NCBI GenBank assembly: GCA_013213785.1 | Contig: JABSPZ010000010.1 | Span: forward strand, 1-64,000 | Length of the DNA stretch: 64,000 nucleotides | Direction: 5' to 3' | Origin: Henriciella sp. | GTDB taxonomy: Bacteria > Pseudomonadota > Alphaproteobacteria > Caulobacterales > Hyphomonadaceae | Shown: piece after piece, positions 41,086-45,925 of the stretch | How the letters are laid out: each line of letters starts with the position of its first letter | How positions within the stretch are numbered: position 1 is the stretch's first letter | Translations under genes and position numbers: made by a program | The notes under the pieces: model-generated | What the model was told of the DNA's origin: nothing | The model's input: only the letters and a program-made list of their open reading frames with translations | Databases searched by the model: none

Positions 41086-42336
41086 TTATTGCGCGGCGAT
41101 CTTATCCGCTTCGTCGCCAAACTCTTCGGTGATGCGCGCGACCAAGCGCGTGGCCACATCTTGTTTGGTCATCCGGGGCCAGCGCACCTCGATACCCTCT
41201 CGGGTGACGAGCGCCACTTCGTTCATTTCGCCGCCCATGACATCGCCGCTCACATCATTCGAGACGATCCAATCACAACGCTTGCGCTTCAGTTTGGCAA
41301 TGGCCAGCGCATCAACGTCGTGCGTCTCCGCAGCAAATCCGATCACCAGGTCCGGGCGGTTCTTCTTTTTGCGCGATAGTGTGGCCAGGATGTCTGGGTT
41401 TTCTGACAGTTCTAGCGTTGGATGCGGATCACCACCGCCTTCTTTGAGCTTCATCTTCTTCGCGGCCGCGCGGCTTGGGCGCCAATCAGCAACTGCCGCC
41501 ACAGAGATAAACACATCCGATGGTAGCGCGTCTTGGCAGGCGTCGAGCATCTCGCGGGCGGTCTCAACCGGCACATGATCTACGCCGTCTGGGACTTGCA
41601 ACGCGACCGGCCCAGAGACCAATGTCACGCGCGCTCCGGCTTTGGCGAGGGCGCCAGCAATCGCATAGCCCTGCTTGCCGCTGGAATGGTTCGACAGAAA
41701 ACGAACCGGGTCGAGCGGCTCGCGCGTCGGTCCAGCGGTCACCAAAGCGTGGCGCCCGGCGAGTGGTTTTGGGTCTAGGCCGTAGAGAACGGGTCCATCG
41801 CTCAGCAAAGCTTCGATACGACCGGCAATTTCGAGCGGTTCCGGCAGGCGTCCAGGTCCAAACTCGCCGCAAGCCATAGCGCCTTCGTCAGGGTCCATGA
41901 CGGTCACGCCATCATTACGCAGGGTCTCGACGTTGCGCTGTGTCGCGGCGTGTTCCCACATGCGAACATTCATCGCCGGAACCATCAGCACAGGCTTATC
42001 CGTCGCGAGCAGCGTGGTTGATGCGAGATCATTGGCCAAGCCATTCGCAGCTTTTGCCATCAAATCTGCCGTCGCCGGGCAGACCACAACCAGGTCTGCG
42101 GACCGCGACAGCTGAATGTGGCCCATATCGGCCTCATCATCCAAGTCGAAAAGTTCGGTGAAGACTTTCTCGCCAGAGAGCGCTGAAACAGACAGCGGGG
42201 TCACGAATTCCTGTCCGCCTTTTGTGACAATGCAACGGCTCGCGATGCCGCGCCGCGCCAGCTCTCGGATCAGCTCGAGAGATTTATAGGCGGCGATCCC
42301 GCCACCAATGACCAGAAGAATACGCTTACCTGACAT
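41086..42336 (-). CDS. coaBC: Bifunctional phosphopantothenoylcysteine decarboxylase/synthase
   Basis: KRILLVIGGGIAAYKSLELIRELARRG, PAMNVRMWEHAATQRN, VTAGPTREPLDPVRFLSNHSSGKQGYAIA. Confidence 0.97.
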   Translation of the reverse strand: MSGKRILLVIGGGIAAYKSLELIRELARRGIASRCIVTKGGQEFVTPLSVSALSGEKVFTELFDLDDEADMGHIQLSRSADLVVVCPATADLMAKAANGLANDLASTTLLATDKPVLMVPAMNVRMWEHAATQRNVETLRNDGVTVMDPDEGAMACGEFGPGRLPEPLEIAGRIEALLSDGPVLYGLDPKPLAGRHALVTAGPTREPLDPVRFLSNHSSGKQGYAIAGALAKAGARVTLVSGPVALQVPDGVDHVPVETAREMLDACQDALPSDVFISVAAVADWRPSRAAAKKMKLKEGGGDPHPTLELSENPDILATLSRKKKNRPDLVIGFAAETHDVDALAIAKLKRKRCDWIVSNDVSGDVMGGEMNEVALVTREGIEVRWPRMTKQDVATRLVARITEEFGDEADKIAAQ

Positions 42337-42465
42337 GCCACACACTTATGCCACTTCCGGGCCATGTGACACAAAACAAATGAAAAAACGACCACACAGA
42401 TGCGTGAGTTTTACGTTTTTGGTTAACAGATTGAGCTTTGGGCAGTCTCGATAGGGTATTCTTCG

Positions 42466-42623
42466 CCATCTTGATTGCTTAACCACCGCACATCTTTCTA
42501 CGCCGGAAGCCCCGCAGTGAGGTGCGAGACTTCCCCCCAACCGAGCGGGGTTTTCCGATCCAGTTCTCTCAGATGTGCGTTCAGGGAGAGAGAAATCGAA
42601 CTGGAACAGAATTCTGTTTTTTT
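42466..42623 (+). ncRNA. Candidate structured small RNA, unidentified family
   Basis: GGAAGCCCCGC/GCGGGGTTTTCC 11-bp helix (two G-U on + strand); CGCACATCT(42487)/AGATGTGCG(42571) 9-bp long-range helix; CCAGTTC...GAACTGG hairpin whose loop contains AGATGTGCG; AACAG-AATT-CTGTT then 7 T. 5' end is estimated from a weak TTGAGC-N17-GGGTAT promoter. Confidence 0.5.
42605..42623 (+). terminator. Short hairpin plus T-tract ending the candidate RNA
   Basis: AACAGAATTCTGTT palindrome overlapping/followed by TTTTTTT. Confidence 0.5.
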
Positions 42624-42627
42624 GCCT

Positions 42628-42810
42628 CTATTCGGGCGCGATGAAATTGATCACCAATCCTTTGTCCAGCGAGGCTTTGAGGGTCATTTCAACCCCGCCT
42701 GTTTGAAGCTGGACCCCGTCGCCTTCGACGCTTGCGAAGGCTGCGAGTGATAGGGCAGCAGCGACGAGCAGTCCGGTTCGGATCCCGCTTCTGATGGCCT
42801 TGCGTGTCAT
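42628..42810 (-). CDS. Small secreted protein (60 aa) at 3' end of psp cluster
   Basis: MTRKAIRSGIRTGLLVAAALSLAAFASVEGDGVQLQTGGVEMTLKASLDKGLVINFIAPE; signal-peptide-like N-terminus. Confidence 0.5.
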   Translation of the reverse strand: MTRKAIRSGIRTGLLVAAALSLAAFASVEGDGVQLQTGGVEMTLKASLDKGLVINFIAPE

Positions 42811-42870
42811 GGGAATTCCCCTCTCTATCCTAATCTTGCCTGATCCCAGGTTACATGTGTAACCTATTCC

Positions 42871-43335
42871 TTAGTTTTGTTCTAGATCTTTGAACGCCTT
42901 TTTTAGGCGCCACTCTTCGCTGGTGACATTGCGCTCGATATTCCGCAGCCGCTCTTCAAGATCCATAAATGTGTACTTGAGACCGGAGGCGGTGACCCGA
43001 GGTCGGTCTGACACATTGCGCCAGAACTGCTCTTCCTCTGGGGCCAAATTACGACGGCCCTTTGGTTCTTGCGGCGTAATCATCGCAGCGATGATGTATG
43101 CAAAAATCGAGAACGGCCCCGCCATAAAGAAAATACTCAATACGAACAGGATTCTAACGAGTGTTGGTTCCCATCCGAAGCGCTCCGCGATCCCACCACA
43201 CACGCCAAGCCAAACACGGTCAGTCCGTGAGCGGAAAAAACGTTTTGGGTTTGGGGAACGGAACATTGGGTCTTCTTCTCTGCTTGTATAATAATCGTCT
43301 CTTAGCGGACGGCGATGTCTTCTTCTGTGTGTCAT
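42871..43335 (-). CDS. pspC: PspC-domain protein
   Basis: RSRTDRVWLGVCGGIAERFGWEPTLVRILFVLSIFFMAGPFSIFAYIIAAMITPQEP. Confidence 0.92.
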   Translation of the reverse strand: MTHRRRHRRPLRDDYYTSREEDPMFRSPNPKRFFRSRTDRVWLGVCGGIAERFGWEPTLVRILFVLSIFFMAGPFSIFAYIIAAMITPQEPKGRRNLAPEEEQFWRNVSDRPRVTASGLKYTFMDLEERLRNIERNVTSEEWRLKKAFKDLEQN

Positions 43336-43338
43336 GGT

Positions 43339-43593
43339 CTAATCCTCGAACCTGCGGGGCGAGAGCGGACGGCGGCTTTTGGGCTCTTCTTGAGCATCCA
43401 TAAGCTCTTCGATGGTCTCAATGCGGCGCTCGATTGAGCGAGCTGAGCGCCAAAGATCTTCCAGCATCCGCTCATCGTCCGGCATCAGGGTCTTCTGTTT
43501 CCGCCACAGTGTGATGTAGTGAAACACCATGCCGGGGAAGACGACAAATATCGCGACAATGGCTACGGTTGCGATGATGAATTCCTCTCCCAT
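43339..43593 (-). CDS. pspB: Phage shock protein B
   Basis: MGEEFIIATVAIVAIFVVFPGMVFHYITLWRKQKTLMPDDERMLEDLWRSARSIERRIETIEELMD. Confidence 0.88.
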   Translation of the reverse strand: MGEEFIIATVAIVAIFVVFPGMVFHYITLWRKQKTLMPDDERMLEDLWRSARSIERRIETIEELMDAQEEPKSRRPLSPRRFED

Positions 43594-43712: not shown

Positions 43713-44411
43713 TTAGGCCTCCTTCTTATCAGCTGGCTTTGCAGCTTTGGGAGTTGATTTGGTGCGCGCCTTTTTCAGAGCCTTCAGCTCTTCTTCGATC
43801 GCATCATTGCGCTCGAGGGCAGCAAACTCTTGCTCAAGTGTTGGCTCGACGCCGCGAATGGTCTCAGCGTAAGCTTCGAGCTCATCCACTTTGCGCTCAA
43901 CTTGTGAGTAGCGTGCCAGGGCATCATCAACGCGGGTGTCGTAAGTCTGCTCACGGACACGGATGCGTTGCTCCGCGGCGTCGCGGCGCATCATCAGAGC
44001 GCGGTGCTTCGCTTTGGCTTCGTCGAGTTTCGCTTGCAGGCGGGTCAGATCATCCTGACGCTTGTGAAACGCCTCTTCAGCCAAATCCATCGCTTCTTTG
44101 CGGCGTGTGATTTCCTGCTCGGCTTTCTTTTTCGCGATCAGCGCGCCGCGAGCGAGATCTTCGCGGCCTTTATCGATCGCGAGGCCAGCTTTGGTTTCCC
44201 AGTCGGCGCGGATTTCAGAATAGTGCGCAATCTCGCGCTCCATTTCTTTCTTATCGGCCATGGCACGCGCCGCTGCGGTGCGGACTTCTACAAGCGTGTC
44301 TTCCATTTCTTGGATCATAAGACGCGCGATCTTTTCTGGGTTTTCGGCATTGTCCAGCATCGCGTTGATGTTGGAATTAATGATGTCGCCGAGGCGTGAG
44401 AACATTCCCAT
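43713..44411 (-). CDS. pspA: Phage shock protein A (PspA/IM30/Vipp1)
   Basis: MGMFSRLGDIINSNINAMLDNAENPEKIARLMIQEMEDTLVEVRTAAARAMADKK; long coiled coil. Confidence 0.97.
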   Translation of the reverse strand: MGMFSRLGDIINSNINAMLDNAENPEKIARLMIQEMEDTLVEVRTAAARAMADKKEMEREIAHYSEIRADWETKAGLAIDKGREDLARGALIAKKKAEQEITRRKEAMDLAEEAFHKRQDDLTRLQAKLDEAKAKHRALMMRRDAAEQRIRVREQTYDTRVDDALARYSQVERKVDELEAYAETIRGVEPTLEQEFAALERNDAIEEELKALKKARTKSTPKAAKPADKKEA

Positions 44412-44488
44412 GATATTTTTTCCTTGTATCTTTTGGGGTTCAAAGGGGAGAGGGAGGAAACGCGGTTTCTTTTGGCTGTTTTCAGCTC

Positions 44489-44641
44489 TTAGAAGAAGAA
44501 GCCGCCGAGGAAGACACCAGCGACAAAGAACATCCATGTCTCTGGTGAGCGAGTGGAGAGGTAGCGGCCAAAGCGGCCACTCTCACGGCGGGCTTGGTCG
44601 TAACGGTCGCCATAGCCATTTTCGTAAGAGCGCTCAGTCAT
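44489..44641 (-). CDS. Small C-tail membrane protein, first gene of psp operon
   Basis: MTERSYENGYGDRYDQARRESGRFGRYLSTRSPETWMFFVAGVFLGGFFF*; hydrophobic C-tail. Confidence 0.65.
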   Translation of the reverse strand: MTERSYENGYGDRYDQARRESGRFGRYLSTRSPETWMFFVAGVFLGGFFF

Positions 44642-44694
44642 TGTTTTTCTATCCTTCTTGCGAGCGACCCCACTGGCCGCCATGCCAGATTGAT

Positions 44695-44710
44695 TTCAAG
44701 GACCGTGCCA
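44695..44710 (-). promoter_or_regulatory. Sigma-54 (-24/-12) promoter of psp operon
   Basis: Minus strand TGGCAC-GGTCC-TTGAA versus consensus TGGCAC-N5-TTGCA. Confidence 0.8.
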
Positions 44711-44845: not shown

Positions 44846-45925
44846 ATGATCGGAAACCAAAGCCCCCAATTGATCGGCGAGGATCCAAGCTGGCTGGAAG
44901 CGCAGGAACACGTCTCTCGTTTGGCCCCGCTCGACCGCCCTTGCCTGATCATTGGCGAACGCGGCACCGGTAAGGAACTGATCGGGGAGCGGATGCACTT
45001 CCTCTCGCGTCGCTGGGAAGGCCCGTTTGTGAAAGTGAATTGCGCCGCCCTCTCGGAGCAACTCTTAGACAGTGAGCTATTCGGTCATGAGCGCGGCGCT
45101 TTTACCGGCGCGACCGAACGGCGGCTTGGCCGATTTGAGCTCGCGAATGGCGGCACGCTCTTTCTCGATGAAATCGCCACCGCCTCAATGCAGGTCCAGG
45201 AAAAGCTGCTTCGCGTCGTTGAATATGGCGAGTTTCAGCGTCTTGGCGGTGAAAAGGTTCTGACCACAAATGTGCGCGTGGTCGCTGCGACCAATGTCGA
45301 CCTTCCCAGCAAAGCCGCCAGCGGAGACTTCCGCGCCGACTTGCTGGATCGCCTAGCCTTCGATGTGGTCACACTTCCGCCCCTGCGAGCAAGGCCAGCC
45401 GACATTTCCCTGCTCGCGGATTTCTTCGCGCGGCGCATGGCGCGCGAAATGGCCGAGGATTTTCCAGGCTTCGCCCCATCCGCTATCGCGGCCATGGAAG
45501 CCCATAGCTGGCCGGGCAATGTGCGCGAGCTGCGCAATTTCGCGCAGCGCATTACTTATCGCGCAATCGCCGAGCATTCAGTGGACCCCGTTCAGTTTGA
45601 TCCTGGCGCGCTTGATCCATTCGCCTCTCCCTGGCGACCCGCCGCGGTTCTGAAAGCCCCCACCCCCAACCAAGCCCCGCAAACAGAAGCGCCCACCGCG
45701 CCACCGCCGCCTGTGCTCGATATCCCCTTCGAAGACCAGATCCGCTTGTTCGAAACGAGCCTGATCGATACTGCCCTGTCCGCGCATGAAGGCCATCAAG
45801 GCAAAGCCGCCAAAACACTCGGCCTCAGCTACCATCAGTTCCGCGGCCTTCTTAAGAAGTATGGCTACGGCAAAGGGGCTGGAAAACCAGTCGCCGAAAT
45901 CGAGGGTCCGATCCGGAGCATGTGA
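44846..45925 (+). CDS. pspF: Sigma-54-dependent activator PspF
   Basis: GERGTGKELIGERMHFLS (Walker A), GHERGAFTGATERRLGRFELANGGTLFLDEIA, SWPGNVRELRNF, C-terminal HTH KAAKTLGLSYHQFRGLLKKYG; divergent from pspA. Confidence 0.95.
   Translation: MIGNQSPQLIGEDPSWLEAQEHVSRLAPLDRPCLIIGERGTGKELIGERMHFLSRRWEGPFVKVNCAALSEQLLDSELFGHERGAFTGATERRLGRFELANGGTLFLDEIATASMQVQEKLLRVVEYGEFQRLGGEKVLTTNVRVVAATNVDLPSKAASGDFRADLLDRLAFDVVTLPPLRARPADISLLADFFARRMAREMAEDFPGFAPSAIAAMEAHSWPGNVRELRNFAQRITYRAIAEHSVDPVQFDPGALDPFASPWRPAAVLKAPTPNQAPQTEAPTAPPPPVLDIPFEDQIRLFETSLIDTALSAHEGHQGKAAKTLGLSYHQFRGLLKKYGYGKGAGKPVAEIEGPIRSM

Follow-up and report, generated by a model that had tools for sequence, protein, structure and literature searches.

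A structured RNA element at the 3' end of the phage-shock operon in one group of marine Henriciella

The window analysed here, a 64,000-nt stretch of Henriciella sp. DNA (contig JABSPZ010000010.1), has between coaBC and the phage-shock (psp) operon a gap that raises a simple question: does it encode a structured RNA, and if so, on which strand and as part of which neighbouring gene? An earlier note had read the gap as a plus-strand, possibly pseudoknotted RNA of ~160 nt, served by a promoter and a T-tract terminator of its own. Our results demonstrate that the structured RNA is real and covarying, but that it lies on the opposite strand and is anchored to psp rather than being a free-standing gene. 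It is almost certainly a new, clade-restricted structured RNA of the minus strand; in a single marine group of Henriciella it makes up the conserved tail of the phage-shock (membrane stress) operon.

Strand and fold of the element

The element spans 119 nt (42498..42616, minus strand) at the 3' tail of the psp operon and contains three hairpins, H1 to H3. The block is conserved in 10 homologues, and in two more with a different terminator. On the minus strand this core folds with z = -2.73, a value reached by 1 of 200 shuffles, versus z = -1.12 and 27 of 200 on the plus strand. The plus-strand region 42430-42624, whose nested complementarity had been described as better than expected for a spacer, folds no better than chance (z = -1.04; 34/200 shuffles as good). 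G-U cells outnumber A-C cells by 41 to 7 overall and by 30 to 2 in H3, and the element is therefore assigned to the minus strand; the counts and the folding both speak against the plus strand. A small protein instead of an RNA was rejected, as the length changes in stems and loops are not multiples of three.

H1 (42553..42611, minus), a long hairpin, is the heart of the element. It is defined by a covariance model, R1, and by covariation, and has an outer stem (42611-42599/42565-42553), an inner stem (42594-42590/42570-42566) and an apical loop whose core, UCCCUGAACGCAC (42575..42587, minus), is near-invariant in the alignments. The proposed seed is the C-rich loop segment UCUCCCUGAACG (42589-42578, minus). 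Among 12 sequences, 93.1% of the H1 cells are paired and 11 of the 13 outer-stem pairs show two-sided changes, amounting to 28 cells versus 8.9 +/- 2.4 in shuffles and 0-6 in slid controls, figures that are biased towards structure because the alignment was fitted to the covariance model. A MAFFT alignment of 10 sequences gave 10 two-sided H1 pairs versus 4.1 +/- 1.4 in shuffles. H1 thus consists of an unpaired conserved loop on a variable, covarying scaffold, in which the stem sequence is free to change and the loop is not. Covariation among homologues, the check that the earlier note had proposed, is accordingly strong in H1, but on the minus strand. Likewise, the second hairpin of that note is real and forms part of H1, but it fits the minus strand better than the plus strand (62/69 versus 55/69 cells).

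H2 (42535..42550, minus; stem 42550-42546/42539-42535) is a short CCCC/GGGG hairpin; it is invariant, so that covariation neither supports nor opposes it. H3 (42505..42534, minus; stem 42534-42523/42516-42505) is a 12-bp hairpin with U-G pairs and is presumably the terminator. Its cells are kept in 113 of 120 cases on the minus strand versus 94 of 120 on the plus strand (10 homologues). In most species the U run behind the strong H3 hairpin is short (CUUUCC) and does not resemble that of a strong terminator or an Hfq-binding tail. The genome G012, by reading of its sequence, has a canonical T-tailed terminator hairpin at the H3 position.

The plus-strand model starts from complementary words that are all present in the sequence, each in its place. 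Its 11-bp helix keeps 86 of 107 cells in the 10 homologues, versus 113/120 for the competing H3. Most homologues retain the 5-pair core of this helix, a CCCCR/YGGGG pairing (42510-42514/42546-42550), in which one column shows compensation; the pairing would be a rival of H2 and H3 and is a possible alternative fold. The 9-bp pairing between loop and upstream sequence, proposed as a pseudoknot, is not part of the conserved block and is disrupted in G026, the closest relative, where CGCACATCT is replaced by CGCCCTGTT. Neither the TTGAGC/GGGTAT promoter nor the palindrome followed by seven T's is conserved, and a consensus scan of 42200-43000, covering sigma-70-type promoters, found no such promoter on either strand and no plus-strand terminator. 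With the strand evidence opposed to it, and its promoter, T-tract and pseudoknot partner not conserved, a plus-strand RNA of ~160 nt is scarcely credible.

Linkage to the psp operon and distribution

When the coaBC-psp gap was compared by DNA search of 101 genomes, it split into two blocks: block A (42346-42426), which accompanies coaBC, and block B (from 42497), which accompanies orf60, the last gene of the psp operon. In six genomes (G002, G028, G015, G012, G014 and G010) ~1-2 kb lies between the two blocks, and those of the intervening genes that were read code for a TPR protein, GT87 glycosyltransferases and a PI-PLC-like protein. G022 has psp and coaBC on separate contigs, with another gene downstream of the element. 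Because the blocks separate and the downstream genes differ, block B belongs to psp and not to coaBC. The minus strand of the gap is upstream of coaBC, as would be expected of a leader or riboswitch for the downstream gene (coaBC in the window). However, the gene downstream varies from genome to genome (coaBC, TPR protein, GT87, PI-PLC-like protein, or the other gene in G022), and the conserved block upstream of coaBC parts from the element in relatives. A leader is thus contradicted by synteny and highly improbable.

Block A, the 81 bases at 42346-42426 upstream of coaBC, is 90-98% conserved in close relatives and stays with coaBC; it is probably the coaBC promoter region.

The psp operon is laid out with pspF divergent, followed by orf64-pspA-pspB-pspC-orf60. 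pspF (44846..45925, plus) encodes a sigma-54 activator (TIGR02974, Pfam Sigma54_activat). Upstream of the operon lies a sigma-54-type promoter motif, TGGCACGGTCCTTGAA (44695..44710, minus), which is conserved in eight species and one base off in one, the preceding sequence being variable. The motif fits the sigma-54 promoter consensus, except that the usual GC near -12 is GA. Between the promoter and pspA is orf64 (44489..44683, minus), a conserved 64-aa ORF with no Pfam or NCBIfam match. The pspA ORF (43713..44537, minus; TIGR02977) probably has its true start near 44411, because the family match begins at residue 43. It is followed by pspB (43339..43593, minus; Pfam PspB), pspC (42871..43335, minus; Pfam PspC) and orf60 (42628..42810, minus), which encodes a 60-aa small protein. 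No confident family match was found for orf60, and counterparts follow pspC across the family, including in genomes that lack the RNA. Because of the sigma-54-type promoter and the adjoining pspF, we infer from the sequence that the psp tail should be induced by inner-membrane stress.

The G-U/A-C counts, folding and synteny place the element on the same strand as the psp mRNA, in its 3'UTR and evolutionarily linked to orf60. In all RNA-bearing genomes with readable context, orf60 precedes the RNA, and the element is directly 3' of the orf60 stop codon. In the readable RNA-negative Henriciella genomes, a small ORF follows pspC with no motif beyond it.

Many sRNAs near mRNA 3' ends have internal promoters, and the element could be a free-standing minus-strand sRNA gene driven by a promoter that sits at the end of orf60, independent of psp induction and acting in trans in the same way as proposed below. 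The consensus promoter scan was limited to sigma-70, which leaves room for such a gene. However, that scan found no promoter-like minus-strand site in 42200-43000, and orf60 and H1 are set apart by a short spacer that shows no conservation in the homologue alignment. We therefore regard a promoter of its own as improbable and read the element as part of the psp transcript.

Using R1 as a model of H1, we found exactly one copy per genome in 12 of 29 Henriciella genomes, whereas the 76 other genomes of a 105-genome family set had none; with R1 trained on one clade and stricter filters applied in the large search, more distant relatives may have escaped it. With one match per genome, a mobile repeat is ruled out. 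In a pspC tree the RNA-positive genomes group together, with G027 as the single apparent loss, several supports being modest and G027 sitting on a long branch. Probably the element arose once, in a small clade, and was lost once. A scan of GTDB for the loop motif returned nine hits in Hyphomonadaceae and four scattered ones, with an estimated chance number of roughly 4. The named records are Henriciella sp., Hyphomonas sp. and Hyphomonadaceae MAGs, and none of the four scattered matches folds like H1. The loop motif was absent from the viral contigs searched for phages.

Complementarity of the H1 loop to ribosome-binding sites

We searched the 12 RNA-positive genomes for sites complementary to the loop core and grouped these by similarity. 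One cluster is prominent and coincides with the Shine-Dalgarno (SD) sequence of a gene for an M13-family zinc metallopeptidase lipoprotein (Pfam Peptidase_M13_N), which in the window's genome (G000) lies outside the window, at contig C9:40105. The loop complement GTTCAGGGAGA is perfect at this SD in seven RNA-bearing genomes (G002, G014, G028, G015, G007, G010 and G024), incomplete in the remaining five and absent from 15 orthologues in RNA-lacking genomes; the target was picked after a genome-wide search and the RNA-bearing genomes form one clade, so these counts are not independent. Among the five partial sites, G000 and G026 have CGTTCcGGGAGAGA (13/14 nt), G022 and G005 keep GGAGAGAG and GGGAGAGAG, and the G012 site consists of AGGGAGA plus GGGUGUGUG, the latter a match to that genome's variant loop CACACACCC; the duplex energy with this own loop is -31.3.

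Duplex energies between the consensus loop and the M13 site range from -19.4 to -23.8 in 11 RNA-positive genomes versus -4.0 to -15.3 in the 15 RNA-negative ones. Pairing of the site with the genome's own loop is weaker in G007 (-16.3) and G022 (-15.5). No comparable split between RNA-positive and RNA-negative genomes is seen for pspB, pspC or orf60, taken as controls. In the seven genomes with a perfect match the site is invariant, whereas identity over the flank from -50 to -20 is 41%. Conservation of an SD is expected in any case, but the site also contains the bases GTTC, which go beyond what an SD needs.

At ribosome-binding sites (RBS), the loop complement has 48 matches versus 13 and 24 for two control words, an enrichment that is confounded and no proof, because the control words contain TA/CTAG, which is rare in bacteria. 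The single conserved control-word cluster was rejected as an RBS because its ORF stops after five codons and its flanks are conserved too. The word TCAGGGAG is found at the RBS of SPFH/Band-7 and small membrane protein genes (L241-L264 and L265-L285) in many RNA-positive genomes and not in RNA-negative ones; the scanned part of the small membrane protein had no Pfam match. Within the psp genes, no loop complement of at least 8 nt was found on the psp mRNA that would make it a self-target. The M13 peptidase mRNA is thus the best-supported predicted target, and SPFH/Band-7 and the small membrane protein are weaker candidates.

One possible explanation for the element is that it serves the psp mRNA only in cis, with H3 terminating transcription and H1 and H2 protecting the message from 3' exonucleases or binding a protein, and nothing acting in trans. 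The position directly behind the last psp gene is what such a 3' end would have, as are the terminator-like H3 and the canonical terminator at the same place in G012. However, neither termination nor protection calls for a 13-nt loop that hardly varies on a stem that changes freely, and the matching, conserved M13 sites would be left unexplained. We consider a purely cis-acting 3' end unlikely, although it deserves to be weighed.

A model for the element in the Psp response and its relation to known RNAs

We then propose, as the rather probable explanation, that the element is a stress-induced, base-pairing, trans-acting sRNA derived from the psp 3'UTR. Upon inner-membrane stress, PspF would be freed and would drive the sigma-54-type promoter, and the operon mRNA would extend over pspABC-orf60 and on into the H1-H2-H3 tail. 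A cut close to the stop codon of orf60 may then yield an RNA of roughly 110-120 nt ending at H3, in which H1 would display the C-rich loop for pairing with ribosome-binding sites, so that translation would be blocked. Transcription of the tail, its processing, any involvement of Hfq or ProQ, and repression are what we infer in this model. It is tempting to speculate that the element is an RNA arm of the Psp response in one Henriciella clade, through which activation by PspF and sigma-54 would at once produce the Psp proteins and turn off translation of an envelope metallopeptidase, and perhaps of SPFH; we hold the chances of this wider reading to be about even.

The Psp response is usually described as a protein system; a tail processed into an sRNA would add a post-transcriptional arm to it. 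In a literature search of open-licence papers, we found no described example of an RNA arm of the Psp response, no psp-derived sRNA and no paper on Henriciella sRNAs; in papers on Salmonella and Zymomonas, psp figures as a predicted target of sRNAs or as a protein system. The element also has value as a test case, as its stem covaries, its loop is near-invariant and its predicted target site is specific, all within a small clade.

The closest parallels in putative mode of action come from known 3'UTR-derived sRNAs, and the comparison is one of analogy. CpxQ of E. coli (PMC4817254) is an sRNA from the cpxP 3'UTR that lowers synthesis of the envelope protein Skp and so combats inner-membrane stress. 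Like CpxQ, the putative psp sRNA would come from the 3'UTR of an mRNA induced by envelope stress. However, the host gene of CpxQ is cpxP and not psp, it belongs to another bacterial class, and CpxQ has been tested experimentally. If the model is correct, the psp sRNA would parallel CpxQ of the Cpx response and would apparently have evolved separately. Similarly, Rhodobacter has UTR-derived sRNAs such as UdsC (PMC8625941, PMC9779115), which is derived from a 3'UTR and interacts with a 5'UTR. These are, as the psp element would be, 3'UTR-derived sRNAs of Alphaproteobacteria. The host gene of UdsC is RSP_7527, encoding a hypothetical protein, so that the psp element is set apart by its host gene as well as by its lack of an Rfam match.

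Rfam 15 gave no match at or near the gathering score in the window, the element or 11 homologous loci, and three sub-threshold matches lie away from the element, in keeping with the earlier note's view of a candidate novel RNA. Its likeness to 6S RNA (RF00013), drawn in that note, is limited to a loose stem-bubble outline, and the family model does not hit the element even with the cut-off relaxed to E = 5. The view that the element is not 6S also holds in that the genome has a separate 6S-like locus. This locus (C2:41024-41179, L027) scores 39.6 bits versus an Rfam cut-off of 46.4 and is a divergent 6S.
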